Of a stretch of 64,000 nt of DNA, positions 18,689 through 43,127 are shown in pieces. Within the stretch, counting starts at the first letter, position 1, and each line of letters begins with the position of its first letter. Source of the DNA: Bradyrhizobium cosmicum (GTDB lineage Bacteria > Pseudomonadota > Alphaproteobacteria > Rhizobiales > Xanthobacteraceae); contig NZ_CP041656.2 of assembly GCF_007290395.2 (NCBI RefSeq), positions 6,510,001 through 6,574,000 of the forward strand, read 5' to 3'. The notes under the pieces are model-generated. The model ran no database searches, had not been told where the DNA came from, and saw nothing but the letters and a program-made list of their open reading frames with translations. Position numbers and translations under genes: made by a program.

Positions 18689-18998
18689 GTTTATTATGAG
18701 TTTCGGATTGCCAGTTTGGTGATTGCCGGCCCGGAAAGCTCTTCTTGCCAGCCTCGAACGCGAATATCTCCACGAGCCATGGGAGGTGTGCCTTCCCATG
18801 CAAGAACGAAGTTACAGGTCAAACTTGACGTCGGCCGATGATCATCAGGATATCGTTCGTTCCAAGTATCCGGGGATTTTTGCTCCATTTTGGTTAACCC
18901 CACTACCGCCACTGCGGGATGCTGTGTTCAAGATAATTGTGCACGTGTCTTTGCCGACCACCCAGTTGTCGGCATTGCAGAGATGCTTCCAGCCGGGA
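18689..18998. other. 310-bp spacer between esterase and methyltransferase genes
   Basis: Several short overlapping frames exist but none has credible protein character. On the minus strand it would be the leader of the methyltransferase gene. No terminator or operator was recognised, so an internal promoter is possible but not shown. Confidence 0.4.
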
Positions 18999-20503: not shown

Positions 20504-23500
20504 CTAGCCAAGATATTCCTCCAGCCGTTCCGCCACTTTCGAAACATGTGGCTCGTGCATGAACGACAGATGGTCCCCGGCGACGTAGTTGACGCTCACG
20601 CCCTTCAGTGCGACCAGCTCCCAGCCCAAAGATTCATTGAGGCTATATTCCGGATCCCGCTCGTCGACCCGGAAAAGGACAATCCGCGCCGGGATTGGCG
20701 CAGGTTCATACGATCTCGCCAAAGCCTTGAACATCGTCTGATTGTCGCGCAGTTGAACCGGCATCGGCCGGTTTGCCAGGCGAGCGAAACGCCGTGTTAG
20801 CGTCCACAGTCGCAGATGTAGGTTCTTTCTGACAAAGAAGAATGCGCTGGAGAGAGCGACGTCGACCCGGTGGTCCGCTATCCTGCGATAGTATCGCCTC
20901 ACGCGATCAACGCACCGAACGCTCCAGAAGCGGCACCATTCCTTGAACGGCAGGTGCCTATAATATCCCCTATTGCCCGTATCCAGCATCACAAGGATGG
21001 GCACTTCCTCCCCTTCCTCGATCAACTGCTTCGCCATCTCGAATGCGACGACTCCGCCGAACGAATAGCCGCATATCCGATATGGCCCCTTCGCCTGCAG
21101 ACGCCTTATCTCGCTGTTGTAAAATCTCGCCAGCTCATCGATGGTCATCGCTTTCTGAGCGCCGTCGAGCTCTGGCGACGCCAGTCCGTACACCGGCTGA
21201 TCGTGAGGAAGCGCCTTGGCAAGCTCTTCATAGCCAAGCACATGGCCACCACCACCGTGTACGCAAAATAGCGGCGCCCTTGTCCCGGACGCCCGAAGAG
21301 GAATCAAGGACGAGCGCGGGCCTTCATCCTCCCCGGCTATCGCGGCGGCGATCTGCTCGATGGTGCGGTCGACGAGCAACTTTGAGAGATCAATCTTTAC
21401 GCCGAATTCTTTCTTGATCTCGCCGATCAACGATGCTGCCAGCAGCGAGTGCCCGCCCAGATCGAAGAAATCGTCGCTGACCCCGACTTTTGGCAAGTCG
21501 AACAGCCTCTCCCATATGGCCGCCAGCTTAGCCTCGCATGGATTGCGCGGCGCAAGATAATCTGTCCGCCCCGACGAGGTCGTCTCGACCGACATCGACG
21601 GTCGCGGGACGAGCGGCGGCGTCAGATCAACAATCCGCTTGCCTGGATTCTTTGCAATCTCTTCGAGTATCGATTGATAGAACGAAAGAATGTTACGTAT
21701 CGATGTAGCTTCGAACAGACCTCGATCGTATTCGAGGTTCAGCCACACGCTCCCTTCGCGCTCGATGATCGCGAGTTGCAACTCGAACGGATTGCCGACG
21801 CTGGTCGTCGGAATCGGTGTAATGGCCAGGCCGCCCGCCTCGCGACGCTGAAGAAATGCCGATTGGTAGAGAAAGTAGAATTGAAAGAGAGGGTTTCTGC
21901 CACGAACCGACCGCATCTTGAGTTTGGCCATAATGCTTTCAAACGGAAAGGTCGCGTGGTCAAGTGCATCCATGATCAGTTGGCTGGCGTGCCTCAGCGC
22001 ATCGCTCAGTTTCTCCTGACCGCCCAGATTGAGCCGAATGGCGATCGGTCCCGAAAACGGCCCGATGACGTTCTCCGTCTGGGTGCTTCGGTTTGCACTT
22101 GGGGAGCCGATCGTCAGATCTTGCTGACCGGTGTAGCGCTCCAACAACACCGCGAATGCCGCCAAGGTTAGCATGTACATCGTTACGTTTGCCGCGCGGC
22201 TCCGGTCCTTCAGCTGCTCGGTCAGATCGGCAGGCAAGCAGAGCCGTTCTATCGCACCGCGGACCTGCTGGCGCTGTCCCGGCGGGTGATCGGTCGGAAA
22301 ATCCAACACGGGAAGCGGCCCAGTGAGCGACTTCATCCAGTAGGAAAGATGCCCATTGGCTTCTTCAGAGTTAAGCCAATCGCGCTGCCAGACCGCAAAA
22401 TCAGCGTACTGAATTGGTATGGGCGCAAGGACGGGCTGCCGGCCCGTTACGAGCGCTTCGTACGTCACCCAGATCTCTCGCTGTAGAATGCTTTGCGACC
22501 AACCGTCAGAAATGATGTGGTGTACGGTGATTGCGAGCACGTGGTCCTCAGGACCGAGACGAAGCAGGAGCGCTCTTGCAAGAGGTCCACGTTCGAGATC
22601 AAATGGCTCTTGTGCCTCTTCGCGCAGAAGATCCCCAACTTCGAAATCCGCCTGCTGCGACATCTCGCTCAGATCGGAGAAGTGAAGCTCGCAGTCTGTT
22701 CGGCTCGATATGATCTGCTTCAGTTCGCCTTCGGCCTCCCTGAAGGTCGTGCGAAGGCCTTCGTGCCTCTCGACGAGTGACGTCAGGCTCTTTTGGAGAA
22801 GGTCGATCGAGAGTGGGCCTGCAATTCGAACCGAGGCAGGCATGTTGAACGCGGCGCTATCAGGCCGCAACCTCGATAGATTCCAGAATCTGAGTTGACT
22901 GACGCTTGCCGGCAGCTCGCAGCTGTCATCCGCAAGCGCCGATTCCTCTGGCTCTGCCAACGATACGACGACCCCTTCGTGCCCTGGCGCCGTGGATGGT
23001 TCCGAATCGGCGGGATGGACGGCAGTCAGTGTGGAAAGCTTCAGGGAAGAATCTACGGCGACCGCTTGAAGAATCTGCACCATGCCTTCGACCAGCAGAT
23101 TTGCCGTGGCTTCGGTGTAGAGATCCGTGTCGTACTCAAGCGACAGACGCCACCCTTCAGCCCTTTCGACAAGGAAGAAGTTGAGATCATAGAGAGCTCC
23201 CGGAGACTTCGACGGAATCGGCGAAACACGCACTCCTGCAAAATCAAACTCGGAATTGACGGCGCCGCCAAATGCGCGCTGGCAGACGAAATTGACGGAG
23301 CAAAATTGCCCGTTTCGCGGTCTGTCGTCCTCCGGTAGCTCAGCGATGACGCTCTCGAATGGAACAACCTGATGACCGAGCGCATCCCATACCTCGTCCC
23401 GGGCATGAGCAGCCAGTTGGTCAAATCCCGGGTCGCCCGAAAGATCGAGCCGCAGGGCGATCTGGTTGACAAACAGCCCGACCAGATTCTCAAGTTCGGT

Positions 23501-24409
23501 GAGGCTTCGGCCCGCGAGCGGAGTCCACATCGCGATATTAGTCGCGCCGGTGTGTCGGTGGAGTATTGCAGCGCAAGCCGCGAACGCAGTGCTGAACATC
23601 GTTCCGCCGTACTTTTCGTTGAACGATTTCAGGGCATTTGTCATGTCCTTCGGCAGCAGGCGCGAGACGATCGCTCCGTTCGTTGTTGCTCCGCCGCGAT
23701 GATGCACTGTCGGCGCCAGCCTGACCGGCCGGTAACCCCGCAACTTACGCTTCCAATAGCCAATTTCACGATCCCACGCTTCTTCCGCACGTTCCGCGCT
23801 CCAGATCACATAATCCGGAAATTGAATGGGAAGCGCAGGCAGCTCGGCCGCCCTGCACTCGGCGCGAGCGGTATAGAGCTCCTTCAGCTCGCGCAGGATG
23901 ACGCTGATCGACCAACCATCGCAAATGATGTGATGGAGTGTCAGCATCAGCACATACCGAACCTCACCGACGCGGAGCAGGGCAACGCGGATCAACGGCC
24001 CCTTTTCGATATTGAATGGCCGGGTCGCTTCGGCCGCACACATCCGCTCGATCTCGGCGTCTTTTCCTGACGCCGGTCGATTCCGGAGATCGGTAACCGG
24101 GATGAGCAACCTCAACGTAGGGGAAATCAATTGACGGACATCACCGTCAATCCAGGCGAAGGTGGCTCTGAGGACCTCGTGCCGAGCCACAATCTCGTTG
24201 AAACATCGCTGCAACGCCGAAGGATCCAAATGACCTTCCAGACTCCAGCGAAATGAAGCGTTATAGGCCGAATTCCCGGGCCGCTCTTCGTTTTGAAGCC
24301 AGATTCGCTTCTGCGCAGGCGAGACCGGAAACGCGAAGATGTCCTCATCCGCTCTGACAGAGGCGCCTGAACTGCCAAGTCCTCCTTGCATGGGACTCAA
24401 AACGGGCAT
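20504..24409 (-). CDS. NRPS with tandem condensation domains and terminal thioesterase (C-C-PCP-TE), no adenylation domain
   Basis: Terminal NRPS subunit of 1,301 residues. Condensation domain 1 spans about 25-465 with the intact motif HHIICDG (159-165). Condensation domain 2 spans about 495-930 with HHIISDG near 633. A carrier domain follows directly, with the phosphopantetheine serine in DLGGHSLL near 985. The thioesterase (about 1050-1295) has FCVHGGGG, the nucleophile elbow GYSFGG near 1117 and a terminal His in GDHLSFM. There is no adenylation domain between the second C domain and the carrier, so that carrier must be loaded in trans, or the second C domain joins upstream chains or forms an ester. 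It starts 19 bases after the PKS/NRPS stop, so the two are one transcript. The thioesterase marks chain release here. Confidence 0.92.
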   Translation of the reverse strand: MPVLSPMQGGLGSSGASVRADEDIFAFPVSPAQKRIWLQNEERPGNSAYNASFRWSLEGHLDPSALQRCFNEIVARHEVLRATFAWIDGDVRQLISPTLRLLIPVTDLRNRPASGKDAEIERMCAAEATRPFNIEKGPLIRVALLRVGEVRYVLMLTLHHIICDGWSISVILRELKELYTARAECRAAELPALPIQFPDYVIWSAERAEEAWDREIGYWKRKLRGYRPVRLAPTVHHRGGATTNGAIVSRLLPKDMTNALKSFNEKYGGTMFSTAFAACAAILHRHTGATNIAMWTPLAGRSLTELENLVGLFVNQIALRLDLSGDPGFDQLAAHARDEVWDALGHQVVPFESVIAELPEDDRPRNGQFCSVNFVCQRAFGGAVNSEFDFAGVRVSPIPSKSPGALYDLNFFLVERAEGWRLSLEYDTDLYTEATANLLVEGMVQILQAVAVDSSLKLSTLTAVHPADSEPSTAPGHEGVVVSLAEPEESALADDSCELPASVSQLRFWNLSRLRPDSAAFNMPASVRIAGPLSIDLLQKSLTSLVERHEGLRTTFREAEGELKQIISSRTDCELHFSDLSEMSQQADFEVGDLLREEAQEPFDLERGPLARALLLRLGPEDHVLAITVHHIISDGWSQSILQREIWVTYEALVTGRQPVLAPIPIQYADFAVWQRDWLNSEEANGHLSYWMKSLTGPLPVLDFPTDHPPGQRQQVRGAIERLCLPADLTEQLKDRSRAANVTMYMLTLAAFAVLLERYTGQQDLTIGSPSANRSTQTENVIGPFSGPIAIRLNLGGQEKLSDALRHASQLIMDALDHATFPFESIMAKLKMRSVRGRNPLFQFYFLYQSAFLQRREAGGLAITPIPTTSVGNPFELQLAIIEREGSVWLNLEYDRGLFEATSIRNILSFYQSILEEIAKNPGKRIVDLTPPLVPRPSMSVETTSSGRTDYLAPRNPCEAKLAAIWERLFDLPKVGVSDDFFDLGGHSLLAASLIGEIKKEFGVKIDLSKLLVDRTIEQIAAAIAGEDEGPRSSLIPLRASGTRAPLFCVHGGGGHVLGYEELAKALPHDQPVYGLASPELDGAQKAMTIDELARFYNSEIRRLQAKGPYRICGYSFGGVVAFEMAKQLIEEGEEVPILVMLDTGNRGYYRHLPFKEWCRFWSVRCVDRVRRYYRRIADHRVDVALSSAFFFVRKNLHLRLWTLTRRFARLANRPMPVQLRDNQTMFKALARSYEPAPIPARIVLFRVDERDPEYSLNESLGWELVALKGVSVNYVAGDHLSFMHEPHVSKVAERLEEYLG

Positions 24410-24428: not shown

Positions 24429-27400
24429 TTAGTCCTGAACCTTCCTGCCCCGGGAGACTTCGCGCCTCACGCGATACATGCCGCGCTCCACCGGAGTTAT
24501 TACGTGCGACGCCACTGGCTGATCTCTATCGAGTTCAGCCAAGACCCCGGCAATTGTACGCTGTTGAAGCACCAACTTTGGCGTGATCGGTAGACCAGCC
24601 TTAGCCGCCCGCGAGGTTATTTGGAAAACGTGAAGCGAATCGGCTCCAAGCTCAAACAGATTGTCCGTCGTACCGACGACATCGAGCTTCAATATTTCGC
24701 AAACGATCTTTGCGAGGCTTTGCTCCTGCGAGGTCGTAGGTGCAACGTATTCGCGTCCCTGGCTCGCCACGTCGGGATCCGGCGTAGGAAGTCGGGCCTG
24801 ATCGACCTTGCCGTTTATCGTCAAGGGGATGGCATCGATGGCGACGCACGCGTGCGGAATCATATGTGCGGGCAACTTGTCCAGAAGATGTTGCCGCAAC
24901 TCCGCAGGTGTAATGTGCTTCCCTGGCTTGGCCACATAATAGGCAAAGAGCCTCGCAGCCCCTCCATCGTCCTTGCGTACGACGACCGCCGCTTGCTGCA
25001 CCCCAGGATGTTCGACCGAGGCGACCTCGATTTCTCCGGGCTCGATACGAAATCCGCGAATCTTGAGTTGCGCATCGGCGCGACCCAGATATTCGATGTC
25101 GCCCGACGATAGCATCCGGGCGAGATCGCCCGATCTATACATCCGCGCATCCGGACCCGTGACGAACGGATCAGGAAGGAAGCGATCTGCAGAGAGTTCA
25201 GGCCGGTTCAGATAGCCGCCTGCGACACCGGCCCCGCCGACATAGATTTCACCAGTCACGCCCGGGGGCACCGGACGCTGCTTCGCATCCAGCACATAGA
25301 GACGAAGGTCGGGTATCGGCGTTCCGATGAGACTACGGGCCTCTCCCGACACATCGGTCGCGTTCAGCGGCCGATAGGTTACGTGCACCGTCGTTTCAGT
25401 GATGCCGTACATGTTGATCAACTGCGGACTGCGATCGCCATGGCGGTCGACCCAAGGACGGAGGCTCGCGAAATTCAGCGCCTCCCCGCCGAAGATCACG
25501 TATCTAAGGGACAATGGCTTGAGAAGACCCGCCTCCTCCACCTGGATCAGCTGATAGAATGCAGCCGGCGTCTGATTGAGAACCGTGACTCTCTCGTCAG
25601 CGAGCAGGTTGTAAAAGTCCTGCGGCGAACGCGTGACAAAATACGGCACGATGACCAGACGTCCACCGGTCAGGAGGCAGCCCCAAATTTCCCAAACAGA
25701 AAAGTCGAATGAGGAGGAGTGGAACAGCGTCCACACGTCGGTCTCTGCGAAATTGAACCAATGATTGGTCGATTTCAGCAGCCTCGCGACATTGTGGTGG
25801 TTAACGACAACACCCTTCGGCTTCCCGGTAGACCCAGAAGTGTAGATCACATAGGCAGGAACGTCCGAACGGGACAATGACGGCAAATTGGTCGAATCCT
25901 CCAGGCCGATATCGAGCCGTTCCTTGTCGACACAAATCACCTTTGGTCCGCTGTTCGGCAGTTTGCCTTCGAGCGTGGCCTGGGTGAGCAGGACAGACGG
26001 TCTTGCGTCATCGACGAGTGTGGTCAACCGCTCGATAGGATAGGACGAATCGAGCGGCACGTAGGCGGCCCCTGCCTTGAGGGTCGCCAGCATCGCTACG
26101 ATCATCTCGACCGATCGTTCGAAGCTGGTCGCCACCATCGACGACGGCTTGACTCCCAGCCGCTGCAAATAACGCGCGAGCTGATTTGCCCGCGTGTTGA
26201 GCTCATCGTAAGTCAGGCGGATATCGCCCATCTGCACGGCAATACTGCCTGGCGTGCGGGCGGCCTGCCGTTCGAACATATCGACGATCGACTCCGTCGC
26301 GCTCGCATCAATCGAATTCGGATTCAGCCTTGCAAGCACCGAAGAGGTCTGCTCGCGGCTCATGAGCGTCAGGTCATCGACGGCTTTCGACGCATTGGAG
26401 ACTGCATCGAGCAAGAGAGCTTCATAGTATCGCATCCAGAGCGATATCGTGCTTTCGTCGAAAAGGTCCGCATTGTAGTCGCAATCGATCATCAGCCCCT
26501 GATCGGACTCGACGACGTTGAAGAAGACATCGAAAATTACGGAAGCCTTGGGGTTCGGCTCGACCGCCGTTTCGAGACCCTCAAATCGAGCACCCGCTCC
26601 GAGGCGCTCGAGATTGAACTGGACCTCCATGAGCGGCATCCGCGCGGGATTGCGGGGGACGCCGAGCTTTCTCACGAGGGTTCCATAAGTATAGGTCTGG
26701 TGGTCATACGCGTCGAGCAAAACTCGTTTTGCATCGCTCAGAGTTGCCGCAAACGAGGCGTTCGGGTCGATGCGAGTTCGAAGGGGGAGGAAGTTGACAC
26801 AGTGGCCTACGAGATTTCCGTTGTCGAGCAGACTCTGCCCCGCGGCGGGAATGCCGACAACAATATCGGTCTGGCTGCTGAGCCGATGAAGGAGCACGCA
26901 AAATCCCGCAAGCAACGTCGCAAAAAGCGTACAACCATTCTTCGCGCCAAGTTGCTTGATCCTGGAGTAGGACGCAGCGTCGAGGTGATGCCGAGCCGTG
27001 GCACCCGTGTGTGTCTTCACTGACGGCCGCGGGCGATCGGTTGGCAGCGCCAGTTGCTCGGGCAAGTCGCGGAACTGATCGAGCCAATATCTTTCAACAT
27101 CAGTATTCTTGCCGGCGTCTTGAAGCTCGACTTGCTCGCGGGCATACTGGCAGAAACGCGCCGCCACGGGGAGATCGGCATCCCTTCTGCCAACCTTTGC
27201 CGTGTAGAGCCTTGCCAGTTCATCGACGAGCACATTGGTCGACCACCCGTCGCACACTAGATGGTGGGCCGTAATCGCCAACTGATAATGGCCTTGTTCT
27301 AGGCGCACGATCTCCGCACGAATCAGCGGCCCCTTGACGAGATCGAAGGGCCTTCGTGCGTCCGCCGCCAGAGTGCGCCGGTATTCGTTCTCGCGCTCGG

Positions 27401-30400
27401 ACGGTTCAAACGAGGTCAGGTCTCGCACTGGCACGTTGAGCCGTAATTGCGGCTGAACATGCATGATGCCACCATCCGCATCAACCGTGGAACGAAGTGC
27501 CTCGTGTCGCTCGATCAGTTCGTTCACGGCCTCTCGCAACAAGCCAATCTGCAAATCGCCCTTCAGGCTGATGCTGAACGATTCGTTGAAGGCGGAGGAC
27601 GCGTCACTCCCCAAGACAGCAGCGAGAAATATCTCACGCTGCGCTTCAGTCAGAGGAATCTGCTGTGGCGCTGCGGGAGCCGGATCTTCCAGTCTGGAAA
27701 CGGCCGCCGTGGAAGAAGCGAGATTGCCCGCCGTTGAGAAGAAGTCGCCCTCGCGCATCTCGACCGCGCTGGCTCTGAACGCGCTTACAATGTTTTCCAT
27801 GTCCTCATCGCTGTGCGACGTGGTCATGAAGCAGGGGAAACCCTCCCGGATATGAATGCCTTTGTCGCGAAGGTAGAAATAGTAGAGGCTGGCGAGCCGC
27901 TCGGAGGCCGGGAAGCTGAAGTAGAAGAAACTCGCGAACGTCTCAATATGGGTCGGAACCTGTTCGGCCTGCAGGACCTCATTGAGCCGATGAACGAGGT
28001 CTGAGGTTCGCCTGTTCAATTGCTCCTGGAGAGCGGGCCCGTGCTCCTTCAAATGCAGCAAGACAGCGTACATTGCCGCAAGGACGAGGGGATGACGCAC
28101 GAACGTTCCTGCGAAGAACGTGACGCCGACCTCAGGATAGGAATCGTCTCCAAACTGCCAGGTGCCGCCATCGAGAGCATCCATGAAACGGCGTGTGCCG
28201 GCCAGAATACCCACGGGCATGCCACCCGCTATCACTTTTCCATAGGTCGCAAGGTCCGCCTGGATCCCGAACAGCGCCTGACACCCACCTGGATGGACGC
28301 GGAATCCAGTGACGACCTCATCGAAGATCAAGGCGGCGTCCGATTGTGTCGCAATCTTCCGGAGCTCCTTCAGGAACTCCAGCGGCTGTAGCGCGGGGTG
28401 ACGGCTTTGAACAGGTTCAACCAGAATCGCCGCAATATCGCCAGCGTTCTTCCGGATCCATTCGAGAGACTCGTCTGCCCCGTAGTCGAGGACGACCATG
28501 TTGGACACGCTTTGCCGCGGGATGCCGGGCGCGATCGGGAACACAACTGGTTCACCGGCTTTGTCCCGGAGGCCTTTGACGAGAACTTCGTCAACCAAGC
28601 CATGATAGTCGCCATTGAACATGACGACTTTGCTACGGCCCGTTACGGTGCGGGCAACACGTAAAGCTGCGAGAACTGCCTCCGACCCGGTGTTACAGAA
28701 CGCCATGCGTTCGTTGCCGGTCATCTCGCAGAACATCTTCGCGACTTCGCCGGCTAGCGCGCTCTGCGGGCCGGTCTCAAAGCCGGCATGCAGCTGCTTT
28801 TCTATAGCGTCCTGGACGAACGCGGGACGATGGCCGAGCATGATCGGGCCGAAGCCGTTTACAAGGTCGATGTACTCGTTACCGTCGATATCCCAGATGC
28901 GAGACCCCTTGGATCGGTCCGTGACGATCGGGTAGACCATCTCCTTCCACTGGTCGCGGAAACCAGAAACCACACGGGGATCAGCGAGCACACTGCGGTA
29001 TTTTTCGGTGTAACTCTTGGATTTCCCGGTGCGCTGCGTCACCCGCTCGATGAGCCTCTTAAGCTGACTCTTTTGCGTTGCCGTCAAATCCTGGGACACC
29101 CCAATCTGCGGCGGCTTGTATGGACCGTGAGCCCTGCCGACATCCGACCGGGTGATCTCCTGGGCAACGATAGCCGGCGCTGCCTGCGGGACTGGCGGCA
29201 GAGGAACAATTGACGCACTAGAGACCACTGGGATCGCAGCTTGTGAGACTGCGACCTGCATCGTCTCGAGCTGCTTCGCGAGCAATTGATTCATCGCATG
29301 CAGTTGATCTCGCATGAGCTGTCCAACCGCGTCTCCAGCCAGGGACGACGGGGCACCTGGCGCAGCAGACGCAGGTCGAGACTCTTGCGCGGCGACGGAG
29401 GCAGCCGCGATGGCCGTCACGGTACCGGTCTCATCTGGACGCTTCGGAGTACTTGGCGGTTCGCAGAACGCATCGGGCGCCAACTCGCCCTGGACATAGT
29501 TGGTCAATGCCGCCAGGCTCGATATGTCATTGAGCAACTGCCGAAACGTGATCTTGATCGCGAACTTCTCCTGCACGGCTTGCGCGAGCTGCGTGAGGAA
29601 CAGAGAGTCGAAGCCCAATTCGAGAAATGTTATCGAGCTATCGACCGAGGCGACGTCCACCCCGGAGAGTTCGCGCAACAATTCAGCAATCGCGGTCTGA
29701 ATTTTGGACGAGCGAGCCGATAGCGACGTCAAAGCTGACTGCGATCCATTTTTGGGCGCCATGTTCGCGACTTCCGTTTCCTGTGTAGGCTGAAGATTGC
29801 GCACGGTGCGATCCGACCCGGAGGCCCCTGCGGATGATGTCGGATCTTCTCCACCGATCGCCTCTGGGACCATTTCGAGCCAAAAGCGCTTTCGTTCGAA
29901 CGGATAAGTCGGCAATGGAAGGCGCAGACGGCGCTCGCCATTGTGCAAGCCCTTCCAGTCCGGCCGAACTCCGCCAAGCCATAGAGCGCCTACGGCGGAT
30001 AGGAGCGCTTCGACATCGCGCCCACCGGAGTGTTGATCTGAAAGCGACGACACGATGATCTGGTCTTGCGGGCCGCCGTGCTGCCGCGCAAGCGTAGCCA
30101 GGACATTCCCTGGTCCCACCTCCAGGAGCATCGCTTTTGGATTCTGCCGGATCACCTGAACAACGGACGAAAATCGGACCGGCTCGCGCGCATGTCGCGC
30201 CCAATAATGAGGATCGGTTGCGTCCTCGTCGGTAATCCAATCCCCAGTAACGCCAGAAACATAGGGGATCCGAGGCTGGTTGAGCTTCGTCTCGGCGATT
30301 GCCTCCGCCAATGGATCAACGAGAGGATCCATCATCGCAGAATGAAACGCGTGAGACGTTACCAACCGCCGATAAACGACCTTCTGATCGCCCAACTCGC

Positions 30401-32543
30401 GCTCAAGGTCGGCGATCGCTTCAAGCGGGCCTGCAACCACGCAGAGCGACGGAGAGTTGACCGCAGCAATCGAAAGGGGCCCGCGCAGAATGCCGTGAAG
30501 CTTCGCCTCTGGTAGCCGGACCGAGAGCATGCCGCCTGCAGGCAGCTGCTGCATCAAACGTCCCCGCACAGCAACGAGTTTCAGCGCATCTTCCAATGAC
30601 ATGACGCCCGCGAGGCATGCTGCGACAAACTCACCAATGCTGTGGCCGGCCATCGTTGTTGGCCGGACTCCCCAACTCATCCAGAGTTGCGCCAAGGCGT
30701 ATTCGATTGTGAAGATGGCCGGCTGCGCGATGATTGTTTCGGTTACGGCGCGCTTTGTCTGGTCATTCGCTCCCTCCGGCGGATATAACACGCTTCGAAG
30801 ATCGACCCCAAGGTGCGGGATGAGCATCTCGGAACAACGGTCAACGACCTCCCGAAAGATCGGCTCGGCTGCGTAGACCTCACGCGCCATGTCGACGTGC
30901 TGCGAACCCTGCCCAGGGAACATGAAGCAGATTTCGGGCGTGTCGTATGGCTTGGAGCGTGTCTGTATTCGTTCCCGCTTTGACAATGCGAGGACAGCTT
31001 CATCGACGTCTCCTGCCACCACCATCCGGCGGCAAGAAAATTCGTGCCTACCCTCCTGTAAGGTCCAGGCGACGTCCGCAAGGTCGAGCTCAGGGTGCTG
31101 CCGCAGATGCTCTGCTAGATTGTCGGTAGCGCTCTCGAGGGCGGTCGGCGAACGCGCGGACAGCACCAGCAACTGCGATGATCTGGTCGAGTGCGTCGGC
31201 TCTCTCTGTGGCGCCTGCTCAAGCACCAGATGCGCGTTGGTTCCACCGACGCCGAAAGCGCTCACTCCCGCTCGTCGCGGACCATCGCCGCAATTCCATT
31301 CCGTACGCTCGGTGATGACCCTGAACGGGCTGCTCGCCAAATCGAATTTTGGATTGGGACTCTTGAAATGCAAAGTCGGCGGGAACACACCGTGTTCTAC
31401 GATGTGAGAGGCATTGATCAATCCCGTTACGCCGGCAGCGATATCCAGATGCCCAACATTGGTTTTAGCTGTTCCAATTGCGCAGAACTGCTTGCGTCCA
31501 GTAGAGAGACGAAATGCTTTGGTCAGGCCAATCAGCTCTATCGGGTCGCCCATCGGCGTCCCTGTTCCGTGAGCCTCGATATAGCCTATCGTATCCGGGT
31601 CGACATCCGCCGCCTCATGGGCCATGGCAATGACGCTGGTCTGCCCTTCCACACTTGGCGCCGTGTAGCCGACTTTCGCCGATCCATCGTTATTGACGGC
31701 GAAGCCACGGATGACAGAGTGGATTTGATCGCCATCGCGGATCGCATCGTCTAGTCTCTTCAGCAGCACAACACCAACGCCGCTTCCAAAGACCGTCCCT
31801 TGCGCGGCCGCGTCGAAGGCCCGACAGTGACCATCAGGTGAGACCATCCCCCCTTCCTGATACTGATAGCCGCGCTCCTGGGGAAGGGTGATCGAAACGC
31901 CACCCGCCAGGGCCATATCCGTCTGGTAGGTCAATAGCGATTGGCACGCCTGGGTCACCGATAGCAGCGATGTCGAACAGGCAGACAGCATGGTGAAACT
32001 TGGTCCGCGCAGGTTTAGCTTGTACGACACGCGGGTAGACAGGAAATCCAGGCTGTTTCCCATCATCTCGACGTAGTTCGAGACCTGGTAACCGGAGGTA
32101 AATTTCGCGATGAACCCCGGCGTCGCACACAGCCGTGAGAGAAAATACGAAGAAAGACTGGATCCGGCATACACGCCAATCAGGCCGGGATACGACTCAG
32201 GCACGTAGCCGGCGTTCTCGATCGCCTCCCAACAGCATTCGAGAAATAGACGCTGCTGAGGATCCATCAATTCGGCTTCGCGCGGATAAATCCCAAAAAA
32301 CTCTGCGTCGAAAAGTTCGATGTCGTCGATAATCGACCGCGCGTTCACAATACCCGCGCCCGCCGCCGGCGCGCCCTGGCTAGGTCCCTCCGGCGAGCCA
32401 GCTCCGAAGCGAGAGATCGCCTCTACCCCATCCAGTTGGTTCCGCCAGAACTCCGCCACGCTACGCGCGCCGGGAAACCGTCCCGCCATTCCGATGATTG
32501 CTACGCCTTCCGCAGCTTCACGCTCTGCCTTCCCATCGCTCAC
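24429..32543 (-). CDS. Hybrid PKS-NRPS: KS-AT-ACP-aminotransferase-C-A(Thr)-PCP
   Basis: A 2,704-residue hybrid megasynthase. Ketosynthase (10-430): Cys189 in LSACSTS, His325 in EAHGTGT, His365 in NVGHLD. Acyltransferase (535-850): Ser635 in GHSIGEF, with HAFHS at 731-735, the malonyl-type motif. ACP: Ser980 in LGFDSL. After a Pro/Ala linker comes a class III PLP aminotransferase (about 1165-1610) with Lys1436 in TYGKVIAGG, of the kind that converts a beta-keto thioester to a beta-amine in MycA-type synthases. Then C (HHLVCDG near 1763), A (about 2100-2590) and PCP (ELGADSL near 2634). Specificity residues read from the A domain give DFWNIGMVHK, the threonine code. No KR, DH or ER is present. 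The GTG start overlaps the upstream A-PCP gene by 4 bases (GTGA), implying translational coupling. Confidence 0.95.
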   Translation of the reverse strand: MSDGKAEREAAEGVAIIGMAGRFPGARSVAEFWRNQLDGVEAISRFGAGSPEGPSQGAPAAGAGIVNARSIIDDIELFDAEFFGIYPREAELMDPQQRLFLECCWEAIENAGYVPESYPGLIGVYAGSSLSSYFLSRLCATPGFIAKFTSGYQVSNYVEMMGNSLDFLSTRVSYKLNLRGPSFTMLSACSTSLLSVTQACQSLLTYQTDMALAGGVSITLPQERGYQYQEGGMVSPDGHCRAFDAAAQGTVFGSGVGVVLLKRLDDAIRDGDQIHSVIRGFAVNNDGSAKVGYTAPSVEGQTSVIAMAHEAADVDPDTIGYIEAHGTGTPMGDPIELIGLTKAFRLSTGRKQFCAIGTAKTNVGHLDIAAGVTGLINASHIVEHGVFPPTLHFKSPNPKFDLASSPFRVITERTEWNCGDGPRRAGVSAFGVGGTNAHLVLEQAPQREPTHSTRSSQLLVLSARSPTALESATDNLAEHLRQHPELDLADVAWTLQEGRHEFSCRRMVVAGDVDEAVLALSKRERIQTRSKPYDTPEICFMFPGQGSQHVDMAREVYAAEPIFREVVDRCSEMLIPHLGVDLRSVLYPPEGANDQTKRAVTETIIAQPAIFTIEYALAQLWMSWGVRPTTMAGHSIGEFVAACLAGVMSLEDALKLVAVRGRLMQQLPAGGMLSVRLPEAKLHGILRGPLSIAAVNSPSLCVVAGPLEAIADLERELGDQKVVYRRLVTSHAFHSAMMDPLVDPLAEAIAETKLNQPRIPYVSGVTGDWITDEDATDPHYWARHAREPVRFSSVVQVIRQNPKAMLLEVGPGNVLATLARQHGGPQDQIIVSSLSDQHSGGRDVEALLSAVGALWLGGVRPDWKGLHNGERRLRLPLPTYPFERKRFWLEMVPEAIGGEDPTSSAGASGSDRTVRNLQPTQETEVANMAPKNGSQSALTSLSARSSKIQTAIAELLRELSGVDVASVDSSITFLELGFDSLFLTQLAQAVQEKFAIKITFRQLLNDISSLAALTNYVQGELAPDAFCEPPSTPKRPDETGTVTAIAAASVAAQESRPASAAPGAPSSLAGDAVGQLMRDQLHAMNQLLAKQLETMQVAVSQAAIPVVSSASIVPLPPVPQAAPAIVAQEITRSDVGRAHGPYKPPQIGVSQDLTATQKSQLKRLIERVTQRTGKSKSYTEKYRSVLADPRVVSGFRDQWKEMVYPIVTDRSKGSRIWDIDGNEYIDLVNGFGPIMLGHRPAFVQDAIEKQLHAGFETGPQSALAGEVAKMFCEMTGNERMAFCNTGSEAVLAALRVARTVTGRSKVVMFNGDYHGLVDEVLVKGLRDKAGEPVVFPIAPGIPRQSVSNMVVLDYGADESLEWIRKNAGDIAAILVEPVQSRHPALQPLEFLKELRKIATQSDAALIFDEVVTGFRVHPGGCQALFGIQADLATYGKVIAGGMPVGILAGTRRFMDALDGGTWQFGDDSYPEVGVTFFAGTFVRHPLVLAAMYAVLLHLKEHGPALQEQLNRRTSDLVHRLNEVLQAEQVPTHIETFASFFYFSFPASERLASLYYFYLRDKGIHIREGFPCFMTTSHSDEDMENIVSAFRASAVEMREGDFFSTAGNLASSTAAVSRLEDPAPAAPQQIPLTEAQREIFLAAVLGSDASSAFNESFSISLKGDLQIGLLREAVNELIERHEALRSTVDADGGIMHVQPQLRLNVPVRDLTSFEPSERENEYRRTLAADARRPFDLVKGPLIRAEIVRLEQGHYQLAITAHHLVCDGWSTNVLVDELARLYTAKVGRRDADLPVAARFCQYAREQVELQDAGKNTDVERYWLDQFRDLPEQLALPTDRPRPSVKTHTGATARHHLDAASYSRIKQLGAKNGCTLFATLLAGFCVLLHRLSSQTDIVVGIPAAGQSLLDNGNLVGHCVNFLPLRTRIDPNASFAATLSDAKRVLLDAYDHQTYTYGTLVRKLGVPRNPARMPLMEVQFNLERLGAGARFEGLETAVEPNPKASVIFDVFFNVVESDQGLMIDCDYNADLFDESTISLWMRYYEALLLDAVSNASKAVDDLTLMSREQTSSVLARLNPNSIDASATESIVDMFERQAARTPGSIAVQMGDIRLTYDELNTRANQLARYLQRLGVKPSSMVATSFERSVEMIVAMLATLKAGAAYVPLDSSYPIERLTTLVDDARPSVLLTQATLEGKLPNSGPKVICVDKERLDIGLEDSTNLPSLSRSDVPAYVIYTSGSTGKPKGVVVNHHNVARLLKSTNHWFNFAETDVWTLFHSSSFDFSVWEIWGCLLTGGRLVIVPYFVTRSPQDFYNLLADERVTVLNQTPAAFYQLIQVEEAGLLKPLSLRYVIFGGEALNFASLRPWVDRHGDRSPQLINMYGITETTVHVTYRPLNATDVSGEARSLIGTPIPDLRLYVLDAKQRPVPPGVTGEIYVGGAGVAGGYLNRPELSADRFLPDPFVTGPDARMYRSGDLARMLSSGDIEYLGRADAQLKIRGFRIEPGEIEVASVEHPGVQQAAVVVRKDDGGAARLFAYYVAKPGKHITPAELRQHLLDKLPAHMIPHACVAIDAIPLTINGKVDQARLPTPDPDVASQGREYVAPTTSQEQSLAKIVCEILKLDVVGTTDNLFELGADSLHVFQITSRAAKAGLPITPKLVLQQRTIAGVLAELDRDQPVASHVITPVERGMYRVRREVSRGRKVQD

Positions 32544-34483
32544 GATGCATCTCCGATGCGGAATGGCCGCTTTCGGCCAAACGCTGCGCGTTGCCTTTGC
32601 GCTCTAGACCGCGCGTCCGCGAGGCCCGTCTGCCGCGCGGTGCTCGCATTCAGATGCCGCGCGAGACCGCGTATCGTGGTGAACTCGAACAGGTCGGTAA
32701 TGGGAATATCGAGCTGCAACTCTTGTTGCATCCGAACATGAACTCTCGCGAGCAGGAAGGAGTCTCCGCCAACATCGAAAAAATTGTCGTCGATACCAAC
32801 CGCTTCTATACCTAGAGCCTTGCGCCAGATGTTTGCGATCTCTACCTCCAAGGGCACCGAGGCACGTACAGGCTCGACGTGAGCCACTCGTTTGGGCGCA
32901 GGAAGAGCGGCACGATCTATTTTGCCATTCACCGTCAGCGGGAAGGATTCGAGCATTTCGTAGGCATAAGGCACCATATGCTCGGGAAGGCGCGACTTGA
33001 GAAAATCACGCAAGTTCGGCGTGGAGACAGATACAGACGGTTTGCTGATAATATAAGCTACGAGCTTCGGCTCACCCGGCTGACCGTCTCTTCGCGCCAT
33101 AACAACGGCCTGCGCAACGGACGGATGATCCGCAAGCGTAGCCTCGATCTCTCCCAGCTCTATCCGGTAGCCGCGAATCTTGACCTGCAAATCACCCCGG
33201 CCGAGATATTCGAGATCTCCGTCCTCGGTGGCGCGTGCCAGATCGCCGGTTCTGTACATGACGTTCAACGGCCCGGCTGCAAACGGATCCCGAACAAAGC
33301 GTTCCGCCGTCAACTCCGCGCGATTCAGATAGCCCCGCGCTACGCCAGCGCCACCGACATAGATCTCTCCGACACTGCCATTGGCGACCGGCCGCATTTC
33401 CGAGTCGAGCAAATAGAGCTTCAAATCCGGAATAGGAACGCCGATCAGGCTTCTTGTTTCTGCTTGGGCGTCTATTGCCCTGACGGGTCTGTAAGTTACG
33501 TGAACGGTCGTTTCCGTTATCCCGTACATGTTGATTAGCCGTGGCGTCTGGTCGCCATGACGTTCGAACCAGGGACGGAGATTTGCGAAATTGAGTGCTT
33601 CGCCGCCGAAAATGACATAGCGAAGTTTCAACAGTTCAACGACGCCGGATTCTTCAAGTTGGACCAATTGATAGAATGCGGCCGGCGTCTGGTTGAGTAC
33701 GGTGACCTGATCCTGGGCCAACAAGCGATAGAAATCGCTCGGCGAGCGGGCTACCCAGTGCGGTACACAGACCAGCCGACCTCCACTCAGCAGGCAGCCC
33801 CAGATCTCCCAGACCGAAAAATCGAATGCCGATGAGTGAAACAAGGTCCATACATCGCTCGGCCCGAAATTGAACCAATGCGCAGTCGAGGTAAAAAGGC
33901 GGGCCGCATTCAGATGGGTGACCATTACCCCCTTGGGGCGGCCCGTCGATCCCGAGGTGTAAATCACATACGCAAGATTATCTGGCGAAGCGATCTCCTC
34001 CAATCGATCCGGGCTCTGCTCGTCGATCTCACGACGGTCCCGATCGACGCAGATGACCGTCCCGCAGTCTCTCTGTCCGAGCCTCCCGGCCAACATTTCC
34101 TGTGTCAGGATCGCAGACGGGTTTGCATCGGCGAGCAACATCGAGATTCGTTCGAGCGGGTACGACGGATCGATCGGGAGATAGCCGGCACCCGCCTTGA
34201 GGACGGCAAGCATGGAAATGACCAGGTCAAACGACCTTTCAAAGCACACAGCAACCAGACTATCTGGCTGCAGATCCAGGTTGCGCAAAAGGCGTGCGAG
34301 TTGGTTGGAGCGTTCGTCGAGTTTACGATAAGTGAGGCATTCGTCCCCAAGCTTAATCGCGACGTTATCTGGCGTTTGAGCTGCTTGCCGTTCGAAGGAC
34401 CGGCACAATGTTTCAAGACGGAACGGCGCGCGTGCTTGCGTCTCCATCCCTATCACCAGCGAGTCAGCATCTGGCCACGCCAT
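32540..34483 (-). CDS. NRPS loading protein: threonine-type adenylation domain plus carrier (A-PCP)
   Basis: A stand-alone A-PCP protein of 647 residues that should activate and tether the starter amino acid for the following ketosynthase. The A domain has core motifs YTSGSTGRPKG (near 178), FDFSVWE (near 223), MYGITETT, MYRTGDLAR and NGKIDR. Specificity positions read D-F-W-N-I-G-M-V-H-K, the classical threonine signature and the same code as in the downstream synthase. The carrier has VGGDSFLL near 568. A short basic tail of about 30 residues ends the protein and could be a docking segment. The ATG at 34483 has an upstream GAGG; a second Met (METQARA) lies 12 residues in. It appears to be the first gene of the NRPS/PKS operon. 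Confidence 0.94.
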   Translation of the reverse strand: MAWPDADSLVIGMETQARAPFRLETLCRSFERQAAQTPDNVAIKLGDECLTYRKLDERSNQLARLLRNLDLQPDSLVAVCFERSFDLVISMLAVLKAGAGYLPIDPSYPLERISMLLADANPSAILTQEMLAGRLGQRDCGTVICVDRDRREIDEQSPDRLEEIASPDNLAYVIYTSGSTGRPKGVMVTHLNAARLFTSTAHWFNFGPSDVWTLFHSSAFDFSVWEIWGCLLSGGRLVCVPHWVARSPSDFYRLLAQDQVTVLNQTPAAFYQLVQLEESGVVELLKLRYVIFGGEALNFANLRPWFERHGDQTPRLINMYGITETTVHVTYRPVRAIDAQAETRSLIGVPIPDLKLYLLDSEMRPVANGSVGEIYVGGAGVARGYLNRAELTAERFVRDPFAAGPLNVMYRTGDLARATEDGDLEYLGRGDLQVKIRGYRIELGEIEATLADHPSVAQAVVMARRDGQPGEPKLVAYIISKPSVSVSTPNLRDFLKSRLPEHMVPYAYEMLESFPLTVNGKIDRAALPAPKRVAHVEPVRASVPLEVEIANIWRKALGIEAVGIDDNFFDVGGDSFLLARVHVRMQQELQLDIPITDLFEFTTIRGLARHLNASTARQTGLADARSRAQRQRAAFGRKRPFRIGDAS

Positions 34484-34702: not shown

Positions 34703-35389
34703 TCACTCGATATTTTCAGATCGATGAAGGGCCAAGTCAGGCGCTCGCGCATGGCCGTCCTCATTTCGACGGATTTGATGCTTCCTTCCCGAACTCTCGG
34801 CGCTCATCGGCGCTCGATTCATGACGTCAGGAGGCACGCCTGTCTTGAGAACCCTCGCAGGATTTCCGGCAACGATGGAGTGCGCCGGAACATCCCTCGT
34901 GACGACACTTCCCGCACCGATGATCGCGCCGTTTCCGATATTGATCCCGCCGACAATGATGGCCTGCGGCCCGATCCAAACATCGTCTCCAACAACGGGG
35001 TATTCCGTTACGCGCCCTTCGGGTGTGATTCTGTCCTTGCGGCCAATCACGACACCGTTGAACAGGGTCACGTTCGAGCCGATGATGGCATCGCGGTTCA
35101 CAACCAAACCCCAACCATGCACGATAGTGAGACCGGCGCCGGCACGGACCACCGACGGCATATCGATTCCTGCTTTCGCCGACGCGAAGCGATGCAGCAC
35201 TCTCGCTAGTAGATTCAGAGCTGAAGAATGATCCGCGCTCCACTGACAGAGCCTCATGGTCAAGATTGGCCGGAAATTGCGATTGAACAACGCAAGCGCA
35301 AACACCGAACCGCTCGAGGGAGTTTTGCCCTTAACGCGGTAGGCGTCTGCTCTGACCTTTGTCCAAAACGAGGGCATGGCCCAACTCAT
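34703..35389 (-). CDS. Serine-acetyltransferase-like hexapeptide acyltransferase
   Basis: Left-handed beta-helix acyltransferase, likely O-acetylating or otherwise acylating a sugar of the polymer. The N-terminal third is helical, as in CysE-like members. The hexapeptide ladder begins near residue 80: [28 protein letters not shown] covers residues from about 88. It continues with [17 protein letters not shown] and [26 protein letters not shown], the last being the usual cap (AGNPARVL). The C-terminal 35 residues are Arg/His-rich and not part of the fold. Its start overlaps the stop of the upstream GT4 gene by 4 bases, so it belongs to the algD-like/GT4 operon. CysE itself is unlikely given this setting. 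Confidence 0.85.
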
Positions 35390-36705
35390 TTTCTAGTTGC
35401 AAGCGGACTCAGTAGTCGCCTCACCAGGTTTTCGGGCACGAGACCAGCGCCATGGCTACTCGCAACTTGCCCTCTGGATTGACCATGCACTGCCAGGCCA
35501 CCCTCGAAAAGGACTTCGTACGCATTGAGGAGCTTCGGCTCCTCATGCGGCCAGGCGAGCTGCTCCATGACTCTCGCCCTGCCGAACTCACCAAGTTGCT
35601 TCCGTCGCTCCGCGTTGCTCAGCAACTCAAGTATCTTAACCGCGAAATCGATTGAATCATTGGCGGCTGCGTAAAGCGAGGCGTTCTGCGCCGTGTACCT
35701 GCCCTCCGTGAGATCGAACTGAACGATCGGCTTCGCAAGCGCCATGTATTCCATGATCTTGTTCATGGTCGACTTGTCATTCATCGCATTGCATTCGTCC
35801 GAGTTTACGCAGACGTCCGCTGTATTGAGAATCCTGAGCAGTTCGTCGTCCGAGACCCTGCCATGGAATGTAACGTACTCGTCTATTTCCAGTTTGATTG
35901 CGAGCGCCTTGAGCCGCTCGAGCTCGGGCCCGCCGCCTGCGATGCAGAATTGAATGTCATTGCGCTTCAGATCGCGGACGATATGCCTCGCTGCCTCAAG
36001 AAGATAGTTGATCCCTTCCTGTGCACCGAGCACTCCAACGTAGCCGACGCAATACGCACGCCCCTTCCTTACGGATGGATCTGGAGGAACGATCCTGAGC
36101 CGCTCCAGATTTGGGCCGGAACGCACGACGAAGACTCGAGAGGGATCCATCTTGCCACGCTCAAGGGCAATCGAGCGGTAGGAGAGATTGGTCGCTAGCG
36201 AAATGTCCGAAATAGCGAAAGTGCAACGCTCAAGGGCGACCACGACTCGATAGAGCAGATTGCGCTTACCGAACTTCGCTTCGAACAACTCGGGATTGAT
36301 GTCGTGGTGATCGAAGACAAACTTCTTTCCAAGAAGCAGTTTGAAGAATCCTCCGATCAGGAAAATCAAATCGGGTGGATTGCATGCGTGAATGACGTCG
36401 AAGCCCCGCTCGAAGAGCACGCGCCATGCCAGCAGGAACTCCCAGAACAGTGCAACAGCGTATTCGACGAAGTAAAAGGAGACGCTGCGCGCTTCAATGA
36501 TGGGATGCCGGTAGATATGAATGCCATCGATGACTTCGCGGCGAGCCGACGCTCCGTGTCCCACTGGACAGATCACGCTGACCTCGTAGCCAGCCTTGAC
36601 CAGAGCGGTGGCCTCGTTCCAGACTCGGCGGTCGAACGGCACCGGAAGATTCTCGACGATGATCAATATTCGTCTTGGCCGCAATGATTTACCAGCTAAT
36701 ACCAT
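35386..36705 (-). CDS. Glycosyltransferase family 4
   Basis: Cytoplasmic or peripheral GT-B glycosyltransferase adding a sugar to the lipid-linked repeat unit. The N-terminal domain opens with [21 protein letters not shown], a start common in WbuB-like GT4 enzymes (residues 12-32). [10 protein letters not shown] and [12 protein letters not shown] lie in the acceptor half. The donor half has [19 protein letters not shown] and [14 protein letters not shown], and [16 protein letters not shown] supplies the conserved Glu region. Overlaps of 17 bases with the upstream GDP-mannose dehydrogenase gene and 4 bases with the downstream acyltransferase show tight operon packing. Sugar specificity cannot be read from sequence. 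Confidence 0.9.
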
Positions 36706-38008
36706 TGTAATTTCCTACTAATCGAGAGTGATCCTTGATGCGGACCAGATCAACGACAAATTGACCAGGTCGCAAGCGATCACCGATCGTCCGAAATTCA
36801 GGATCGGCATTCCCAACGACTATGATTCCACCGTGCAAAAGAGCTTCATCCAGGGTCTCGACGAGCAATGACGAGACATGGGGGATCATACGCAGAAGAT
36901 AATCCTTGTTGGCACCTACCAGCTTGGACAAGCTAATGTTGCGATCGAAAATGCGGATGTCATAGCCCTTTCCGATCAGTCGCTCGACTATCTCAAGGAT
37001 CGGGCTCTCACGAAGATCGTCCGTGCCGGCTTTAAAGCTCATGCCCAGGATACTCACGGGCCGTTTTTCGAGTTGGACGATCATCTCGAAGCCGCGACTT
37101 GTTTGGCGTTCGTTGGAAGGCAGTACCGCCCCAAGCAGCGGAAGATCAAGGTCCAGAGATTTGGCCTTGTGCACCAAGGCTCGGACGTCCTTGGGCAAGC
37201 ACGAACCTCCAAACGAGAAACCGGGCTTGAGGTAATAGCTGGACAGGTTCAGTTTGGTATCTCTGCAGAAGACGTCCATCACTTCATGGCTGTCGATGGA
37301 AAGGCTCTTGCAGAAAACACCAATCTCGTTGGCAAAGGCGACCTTCACCGCGTGCCAGACGTTGTCGGAGTATTTGATCATCTCCGCCACTTCGATCGAC
37401 GTTCGAATGATCGGCGCCTCGATCGGGCCATAGAGCGCTTCCAGCGCGCTGGCAGTCCGATCGTCCTCGACGCCGATAACAGTCTTGGGTGGCGCGAAGA
37501 AATCTTCAAGGGCTGTCCCTTCACGGAGAAACTCCGGATTCGAGCCAACCCCGAAATCTACACCTGCCTTTTTGCCGCTCGCCTTCTCCAGCTCCGGAAT
37601 AATAACACTCCGTATGGTGCCGGGCAGCACAGTCGATCGGATAATCACCGAATGATATGAGTCTTTCTCGACAAGTGCGCTACCGATCTCGGCACAGACG
37701 AATCTTAGAGCTGCAGTGTCGAGATCGCCGTTCCGCTTGCTTGGCGTTCCAACGCAGATAAGCGACAAATCAGTTCCGAGCACGGCATCCCGCGCGTCGC
37801 GGGTTGCCCTGAGCTGCCCGTTGGAGACTGCAGCAGAAATCTTCTCGCCAAGGCCCTTCTCGATAACGGGCGGCTTGCCTTCATTTATCAGGGCGACCTT
37901 GGCCTCGGCGGGATCAACCCCAATCACGGAATGGCCGAACGAGCTGAGACATCCGGCCGTTACAGCCCCGACATACCCTAACCCAAAAACACTGACTCTC
38001 ATGTTCAA
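36689..38008 (-). CDS. algD: GDP-mannose 6-dehydrogenase, AlgD-like
   Basis: NAD-dependent four-electron oxidation of GDP-mannose to GDP-mannuronate, the committed step of mannuronate-containing polymers. The 439 residues follow AlgD closely over their length: SVFGLGYVGAVTAGCL at the start, ICVGTPSKRNGDLD, RSTVLPGTIRSVIIP, KAGVDFGVGSNPEFLREGTA, VAEMIKYSDNVWHAVKV, the catalytic Cys in FGGSCLPKDVRAL, SFKAGTDDLRESPILE and IPHVSSLLV. These match Pseudomonas AlgD better than UDP-glucose dehydrogenase patterns, so GDP-mannose is the likely substrate. Two in-frame ATGs begin the gene (38008 and 38002), neither with a strong ribosome site. No other alginate genes (Alg8/44/K/E/G) are in the window, so the polymer need not be alginate. 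Confidence 0.88.
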   Translation of the reverse strand: MNMRVSVFGLGYVGAVTAGCLSSFGHSVIGVDPAEAKVALINEGKPPVIEKGLGEKISAAVSNGQLRATRDARDAVLGTDLSLICVGTPSKRNGDLDTAALRFVCAEIGSALVEKDSYHSVIIRSTVLPGTIRSVIIPELEKASGKKAGVDFGVGSNPEFLREGTALEDFFAPPKTVIGVEDDRTASALEALYGPIEAPIIRTSIEVAEMIKYSDNVWHAVKVAFANEIGVFCKSLSIDSHEVMDVFCRDTKLNLSSYYLKPGFSFGGSCLPKDVRALVHKAKSLDLDLPLLGAVLPSNERQTSRGFEMIVQLEKRPVSILGMSFKAGTDDLRESPILEIVERLIGKGYDIRIFDRNISLSKLVGANKDYLLRMIPHVSSLLVETLDEALLHGGIIVVGNADPEFRTIGDRLRPGQFVVDLVRIKDHSRLVGNYNGISW

Positions 38009-38172
38009 ATCACTACTAAATAAATCGATCCGCCAAAGTAGTTATCCTATTTAAAATACGCCGGGCAACAATTAACGCAACATGTTTAATTAGTGAACCT
38101 TTTCAAGCGCGCCGCGACCTAACATTTATTGCCTGCACGTCGGGTTCCCGGTAAGACCTCCAAAGCCAGGAC
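38009..38172. promoter_or_regulatory. AT-rich leader of the algD-like operon
   Basis: Spacer upstream of the dehydrogenase, strongly AT-rich. It contains TATTTAAAATACGCCGGGCA and then ACAATTAACG (38048-38077), which resembles the spacer ahead of the initiating transferase at 45676. A promoter is expected here; the exact boxes are not assigned. Confidence 0.45.
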
Positions 38173-42750: not shown

Positions 42751-43127
42751 GCCCCTACCCCTGTGTTGCTCCGCTCTAACACGGAGAGACTGCAGAGGAG
42801 GATGACCTGAAAGCCTGCGATTTAATATTTTCAACCAAGTGTTTCCCGAAAAGCACAGAAAAAGCCGTAATAGACGCGAAGAAACCCCGACCGAAGGGAT
42901 ATTTTGGCCGCGGAAATGCATATTCGGCCGTCTCACGCTGAGTTTTTGCCTGATTCAGGTAAATGGTTCGCTATTGCGGGTCGTCTTCCCCGGCATTGGA
43001 CCGCTCGAGCCGATCGTCCGAATCACCTACCTGCGTGGTTTACGCGCTCCTCGGGGAAAGCCGCGCTTCGCCCCTCCGCCGGAACGGCCGCTCGCAAGGC
43101 CGAGAAGCTTAACAGTAATCTGGAGGG
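42751..43127. other. Spacer between GT2 and Wza-like genes
   Basis: About 380 bases between the end of the GT2 gene and the Wza-like start. Plus-strand frames at 42839-43288 overlap it but read as Arg/Pro-rich antisense without family features. It should hold the promoter of the Wza-like gene; no boxes are assigned. Confidence 0.4.

Follow-up and report, generated by a model that had tools for sequence, protein, structure and literature searches.

The nonribosomal peptide synthetase (NRPS) genes in a 64-kb stretch of Bradyrhizobium cosmicum DNA raise the question of what their assembly line makes and what its product is for. The stretch, called the window below and used for coordinates throughout, was taken from a genome of 7.27 Mb in a single contig. 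Three genes form an operon-like run on its minus strand, encoding a stand-alone protein with an adenylation (A) domain and a peptidyl carrier protein (PCP), a hybrid in which a polyketide synthase (PKS) module and an aminotransferase (AMT) precede an NRPS module, and a terminal protein with two condensation (C) domains, a PCP and a thioesterase (TE). Taken as a whole, the best explanation, to which we give somewhat more credence than doubt, is that the line would make a β,γ-diamino peptide for an exopolysaccharide or for export with one. The synthetases are listed here with the ketosynthase (KS), acyltransferase (AT), acyl carrier protein (ACP) and other domains of the hybrid.

32540..34483, minus strand: stand-alone A-PCP, 647 aa (PF00501, PF13193, PF00550), with A at about 32921-34396 and PCP at about 32651-32842
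24429..32543, minus strand: KS-AT-ACP-AMT-C-A-PCP hybrid, 2704 aa (Pfam), with a domain order common to relatives
31365..32510, minus strand: KS domain, hybrid residues 12-393 (PF00109, PF02801)
30075..30926, minus strand: AT domain with HAFH (PF00698)
29493..29693, minus strand: ACP domain of the hybrid (PF00550)
27843..28934, minus strand: class-III pyridoxal phosphate (PLP) AMT domain of MycA type, residues 1204-1567 (PF00202; 6kfm at E 1.2e-133)
26343..27665, minus strand: C domain of the hybrid, C_h (PF00668; tree)
24807..26276, minus strand: second A domain, DFWNIGMVHK (code; core akin to Thr-type starter A domains)
24504..24713, bounds approximate, minus strand: PCP of the hybrid, GADSLH (two PP-binding stretches and this motif)
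20504..24409, minus strand: C-C-PCP-TE, 1301 aa, without an A domain (Pfam; C motifs HHIICDG and HHIISDG both intact)

An earlier, sequence-only reading had described the order KS-AT-ACP-AMT-C-A-PCP with an A-PCP partner upstream, an AT reading HAFH, no ketoreductase, and one identical code, DFWNIGMVHK, in both A domains. Pfam recovered the same domains in 24429-32543 and an A domain with a PCP in 32540-34483, the AT showed GHSIGE in addition to HAFH, and the ten specificity positions, picked by motif, agreed between the starter and hybrid A domains. Ketoreductase, dehydratase, enoylreductase and methyltransferase domains were all missing from the Pfam matches to the hybrid. The top-ranked solved structures for its KS are PKS ketosynthases, and its gene overlaps that of the A-PCP by 4 bases (32540-32543) as mechanically called.

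Of 7994 scored candidates, 7394 matched hybrid residues 1020-1640 at E 0.001 or better. This number sets a ceiling for the family, since it takes in more distant AMT proteins, and the best 120 listed were studied. Among these relatives the active-site residues checked are conserved in every sequence not gapped at that position: the KS Cys in 110 (10 gaps), the AT HAFH in 113 (7 gaps), the ACP Ser in 119 (1 gap), the AMT Lys in all 120 and the C motif HHxxxDG in 118 (2 gaps). Such conservation lies far beyond chance expectation. The source names of the 120 name no product.

The AMT was compared with solved structures, where the AMT domain of mycosubtilin MycA came clearly first (449.5 bits) and the next kind, glutamate-1-semialdehyde aminomutase, reached 189.6 bits at best. 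A grouping with primary metabolism, which the sequence-only reading had named as one of three results that would count against it, therefore did not appear. The region of the catalytic lysine and its motif aligns with the MycA AMT structure 6kfm, and the hybrid joins KS, malonyl-type AT, ACP and class-III AMT in a single protein followed by a C domain, as MycA-type proteins do. A second AMT match at E 1e-80 or better was not found in the source genome. In the passages available from two papers, AMT domains of such hybrids are proposed to form β-amino acids in the puwainaphycin, iturin-type and microcystin pathways (PMC4219810, PMC2885083).

Read by domain order, the line would begin with Thr loaded on the stand-alone A-PCP and handed to the KS, where a single malonyl extension would give 4-amino-5-hydroxy-3-oxohexanoyl-ACP. 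The MycA-type AMT would exchange the 3-keto group for an amine, yielding a 3,4-diamino-5-hydroxyhexanoyl thioester, and C_h would couple this unit to a second Thr to give 3,4-diamino-5-hydroxyhexanoyl-Thr. The C-C-PCP-TE protein would accept the chain, perhaps add one residue loaded in trans, and release it, and the product might then serve the polysaccharide locus described below as a polymer substituent or as a molecule exported alongside the polymer. Each of these reactions is a prediction, as are the substrates, A-domain specificity having been judged by reading the ten-position code alone. The central chemical proposal survives the tests made here, yet is unproven. The sequence-only reading had arrived at the diamino-acyl unit and the second Thr, of which the former is still a prediction from domain order; its AMT type stands, and its A-PCP feeding the KS finds support. 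It had left the third synthetase (20504-24409) out of its interval, and with it overlooked a possible further residue.

That reading had also given neither the many related lines, most of them Gly-like at the second position, nor the polysaccharide genes around this one.

34703..39273, upstream, minus strand: GT4 glycosyltransferase, UDP-sugar dehydrogenase, GT4, hexapeptide acetyltransferase (Pfam, NCBIfam)
18999..20426, minus strand: PAF-acetylhydrolase-like alpha/beta hydrolase (PF03403), same cluster in 23 of 80 loci
17888..18799, minus strand: TIGR04325 methyltransferase (NCBIfam 207.9 bits, cut-off 80)
16486..17796, minus strand: polysaccharide flippase-like protein (PF01943)
13793-16045, strand not given: Wzz/tyrosine-kinase transport protein (family matches; relatives in superlocus)
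12189-13544, strand not given: candidate polymerase (place only; relatives in superlocus)
41557..50691, strand not given: polysaccharide export protein, GT2, polysaccharide-lyase-like protein, WcaJ-type sugar transferase, GT2, Acetyltransf_6 (family matches)
53435..55006, minus strand: second flippase (PF13440; MOP flippase family match)

A sugar transferase, flippases (PF13440 and PF01943), Wzz and an export protein together make up a Wzx/Wzy-type exopolysaccharide set, in which the WcaJ-type sugar transferase scores 423.5 bits against a cut-off of 410.75. The candidate Wzy at 12189-13544 has no Pfam or NCBIfam match. The minus-strand genes from GT4 to the flippase-like protein may share one transcript. 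A 1999-aa protein at 5429-11428 combines polysaccharide-lyase and Ig-like parts with Trp-rich C-terminal repeats and has relatives in the genomes that we label G042, G030 and G397, and a caspase-like (peptidase C14) protein occupies the locus edge at 3467-5401.

We counted such neighbours, scored as flippase, glycosyltransferase (GT), sugar-transferase, Wzz, Wza, pyruvyltransferase or GINT-like genes, across the family. A named-genome scan yielded 571 stretches, and comparison at E 1e-3 confirmed 562 as AMT-region relatives; the best 80 were kept as loci (labelled L), of which six had no countable neighbour open reading frame (ORF). At least one polysaccharide neighbour was present in 36 of the remaining 74 loci (59 of 444 neighbour ORFs). 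None of 20 random 20-kb stretches from the genus had one (0 of 300 ORFs), nor did any of 20 other NRPS loci from the genus; of 20 random stretches from four further genomes (G397 of the genus and three others of the phylum), a single one did. The 20 other NRPS loci were hand-picked, mostly single large genes, several alike and two under 20 kb. Nine further family loci, from 9 of the 15 other genomes with the AMT in a 397-genome scan, included 5 with polysaccharide gene(s). The 74-locus count and the random-genus control used the best E-value and ORFs of at least 150 aa, and the NRPS-locus control, the nine further loci and the four-genome control used a domain score of at least 20 bits and ORFs of at least 120 aa. 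Polysaccharide seeds came from the window, L016, L031, L043 and L069, and other seeds from L018, L022 and L025; in at least L041, L057, L059, L080 and L085, gene calling picked a long antisense ORF over a real gene. One neighbour cluster, with a member matching Cupin_8, recurs in 15 loci (L018, L025, L028, L031, L032, L036 and others).

Retention of nearly the whole superlocus is firmer evidence than these flank counts. The window, G042, G397 and, rearranged, G030 all keep two NRPS systems, namely the hybrid with its terminal protein and a second NRPS, along with two flippases, Wzz, Wza, a polymerase-like gene, GTs, a UDP-sugar dehydrogenase and two hydrolases. The sets are not quite the same: the matches listed include no sugar transferase in G030 (80 kb) and no second GT4 in G397.

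A serious contender, from which we nonetheless lean away, is that the product is a small molecule released to diffuse freely, such as a signal, chelator or antimetabolite, and that the polysaccharide genes reflect a mere neighbourhood effect. The terminal TE suggests ordinary release, as this alternative expects, and the Gly-form genome G024 of the genus has different immediate neighbours and lacks the Thr-form superlocus. Against it stand the near-identical gene set shared by four Thr-type genomes, which holds together even where rearranged, the lack of such neighbours at all 20 other NRPS loci of the genus, and the Gly-type genomes G024 and G034 themselves, which are without the superlocus yet carry polysaccharide genes within 60 and 36 kb.

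The link between a β,γ-diamino peptide and an exopolysaccharide, which we prefer, has to be held against several unfavourable points. The short flanks of 38 of the 74 loci, which also fit a free molecule, are without a listed polysaccharide gene, so the link is not universal, and none was found in 4 of the nine further loci (G443, G320, G362 and G238; G443 and G238 end at a contig edge). The family-versus-control contrast is descriptive, because seeds taken from the window and from family loci give the family an advantage over the controls, and because loci of one clade are not independent (for example L069-L091, mostly Rhizobiaceae/Phyllobacteriaceae), as is also true of several controls. The chemistry in turn depends on two rules that we take to hold, DFWNIGMVHK as the classical Thr code and HAFH as the sign of a malonyl-type AT. 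G030 has lost the starter A core. A 214-aa protein there (46511-47152 of L142-L145 read as one stretch) keeps the C-terminal part of A and the PCP; the adjacent hybrid, of 2710 aa and with a Thr code in its second A domain, and the terminal protein, of 1322 aa, are both full length. Loss of the core with PCP, hybrid and terminal protein kept would be expected if the one Thr A domain left can load both carriers, so the deletion could reflect sharing of that domain; early decay fits equally well.

The amination step was considered next to its own alternative, namely that the AMT is present but does not act as drawn, through early exit as a lactam or tetramic acid or through a different carbonyl as substrate. 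A 4-amino thioester is chemically able to close to a five-membered lactam. We regard this alternative as unlikely, as the AMT lysine motif is kept in every one of the 120 listed relatives and the C domains after the AMT make up a clade of their own: in a tree of 70 rows, a branch with support 100 separates the 31 C_h rows from all others, and the C_h of the window groups with the C domains located after the AMT in relatives.

The A-PCP most likely supplies the KS, as the sequence-only reading had proposed, because an A domain is naturally fused ahead of the KS in related loci. Such fusions occur in 8 of the 80 loci (L022, L031, L032, L045, L058, L062, L064 and L074), with an intervening PCP flagged by the scan in 7, L064 being the exception, and again in G034, G429, G395 and G280, with the PCP flagged in G429 and G280 only. 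Delivery of Thr from the A-PCP to the A-less terminal PCP in place of the KS, in the manner of SyrB1 for SyrE, would suit a terminal protein that has a PCP but no A domain and relatives whose terminal A domains are whole in some cases and reduced or absent in others, but the eight natural fusions make it distinctly improbable.

The terminal PCP could possibly receive an extra residue in trans. The window terminal protein has no A domain and that of L083 has only the C-terminal part; the terminal A code reads as Gly-like in L035, L062 and L072, as Val-like in L044 and L093, and is unreadable in L022, L024, L025, L028 and L053. Both terminal C motifs are intact in the window, G042, G030 and G397, the first reads HLLIADG in G024, and the second histidine of HHxxxDG is lost (HQ, HS or HA) in 34 of 50 one-C terminal proteins (L014-L093).

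How usual is a Thr/Thr line? The 80 best loci span Bradyrhizobium, Rhizobiaceae, Paraburkholderia, Beijerinckiaceae, Acidobacteria, Gemmatimonadetes, Planctomycetota, Eremiobacterota and others. With the source genome counted, 16 of the 397 genomes sampled from the phylum carry the AMT at E 1e-120 or better; at E 1e-80 it occurs in 5 of 48 from the genus and in none of 32 from the rest of the order. The hybrid A codes of the 120 best-listed relatives are 77 Gly-like (DILQ type), 28 Thr-like, 7 DAFWLGGTFK, 2 DALRLGGTFK and 6 gapped or mostly gapped, where we take the DILQ type to specify Gly and DAFWLGGTFK to specify Val. Exactly one starter and one hybrid code could be paired in 51 loci, the rest of the 80 lacking one or having two. 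The starter/hybrid pairs are other/Gly (18), Val/Gly (17), Thr/Gly (6), Val/other (4), Thr/Thr (2), other/Val (2), Val/Val (1) and Val/partial (1). The second module is thus Gly-like in 41 of the 51 and reads Thr in the Bradyrhizobium lineage of the window, and Thr/Thr, at 2 of 51 pairs, is a minority form. The family is widespread, and the window line is a re-coded member.

The origin of the second Thr specificity was addressed with trees and sliding identity. In an A-core tree of 102 selected rows, 32 rows of Thr-type hybrid A domains and 8 Thr-type starter rows fall together (40 rows, support 99), apart from the Gly-type hybrids. A few rows are the same protein twice, and P0003/L014 and P0005/L015 share identical A cores (L014 is the G042 record), so that rows are not all independent. 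The AMT of the hybrid is 0.78 identical to ten Gly-type and 0.70 to ten Thr-type relatives, a contrast that is by design, the Thr-type proteins having been picked for AMT identity under 0.72. Residues 2250-2450 reverse this order, with identity of 0.75-0.82 to the Thr type and 0.27-0.50 to the Gly type. Sliding identity hinted at a clean-bordered swap of the A core, which we dropped, since the C and PCP parts of the hybrid also lean to the Thr set and a flank tree joins the Thr-type hybrid A domains to four Bradyrhizobium starters (36 rows, support 97). For these reasons we claim only a replacement: the Thr specificity would have arrived with the replaced stretch, whatever its borders and donor.

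A second NRPS system lies beyond the second flippase.

55205-61600, plus strand: second NRPS, C-A-PCP-C-A-PCP, 2131 aa, without a TE (profile matches)
61609-62379, plus strand: hydrolase nearest exosortase-A-associated hydrolase 2 (TIGR03101; 94.1 bits, below the cut-off of 202.75)
62367-63290, plus strand: hydrolase nearest exosortase-A-associated hydrolase 1 (TIGR03100; 111.4 bits, below the cut-off of 168.45)

Its A codes are SAWHLSLSEK, in which the first position is not Asp and whose counterpart in G042 is DVWHISLIDK, and the Gly-like DILQLGLIWK. We considered this NRPS as a direct continuation of the hybrid line and dropped the idea, its first C domain belonging to a small group separate from C_h. 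G288 and G320 each encode a C-A-PCP-C-A-PCP protein after a PKS-AMT protein, and hydrolases akin to the 61609-63290 pair lie near the PKS-AMT protein of G320. A phosphopantetheinyl transferase is found near the second NRPS beyond the window end, at contig positions 6575442-6576116.

A broader picture can be drawn, as a whole rather doubtful: a widespread soil system whose β,γ-diamino peptide is attached to exopolysaccharide as a nonribosomal peptide-polysaccharide conjugate, re-coded from Gly to Thr in this Bradyrhizobium lineage by replacement of C-A-PCP or of the A core, with the second NRPS adding another decoration. Relative to the sequence-only reading, what is new is a re-coded member of a widespread family tied to polysaccharide loci. 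Related lines in many soil lineages suggest that the product may be a common, so far unseen soil compound, and a true polysaccharide link would connect nonribosomal chemistry with extracellular polymers.

Among the matches listed, no paper describing this line or a vicinal-diamine unit was found in the titles, abstract starts and some passages of open-licence literature, and no known product fitted among titles and abstract starts there, a body that misses most subscription journals and was searched with some terms that were perhaps too strict. In the parts available, two diamino-5-hydroxyhexano compounds differ from the predicted unit, being 2,6-diamino in PMC11509612 and 3,6-diamino in PMC12797225; an available part of PMC10044939 also matches that name.

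Among known systems, exosortase A (XrtA/PEP-CTERM) exopolysaccharide loci, compared through their XrtA/PEP-CTERM gene set, resemble the window in that two hydrolases nearest TIGR03101 and TIGR03100 adjoin an amino-acid-activating system in a polysaccharide locus. The window differs in that both hydrolases score under the curated cut-offs and full NRPS and NRPS-PKS systems are present; no exosortase was found among the window proteins scanned, which were part of the total. SyrB1 and SyrE of syringomycin synthesis pair a stand-alone Thr A-PCP with a terminal module that has no A domain, as does the window, and differ from the family in that some of its members fuse an A domain ahead of the KS.

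McyE carries a methylation domain, and we know of no McyE or PuwE cluster that lies in a polysaccharide locus. Both proteins use polyketide or fatty acyl donors and belong to cyanobacterial toxin or lipopeptide clusters, unlike the window line. The likeness lies in architecture, since McyE (microcystin) and PuwE (puwainaphycin) also place a PKS module, an aminotransferase and the following NRPS module in one protein according to the available passages (PMC2885083, PMC4219810), which give PuwE a monooxygenase domain that the window hybrid lacks (PMC4219810). Closest is MycA of mycosubtilin, in the iturin family, with its PKS module, class-III AMT (449.5 bits) and NRPS part. Iturin-family lines start with a fatty-acyl ligase and an ACP, and the first protein here is an A-PCP with an amino-acid code. 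As far as the passages available extend, MycA has a fatty-acyl ligase and makes a β-amino fatty acid (PMC4219810), whereas the KS of the window is probably fed by an aminoacyl-PCP, with a β,γ-diamine as the predicted outcome.

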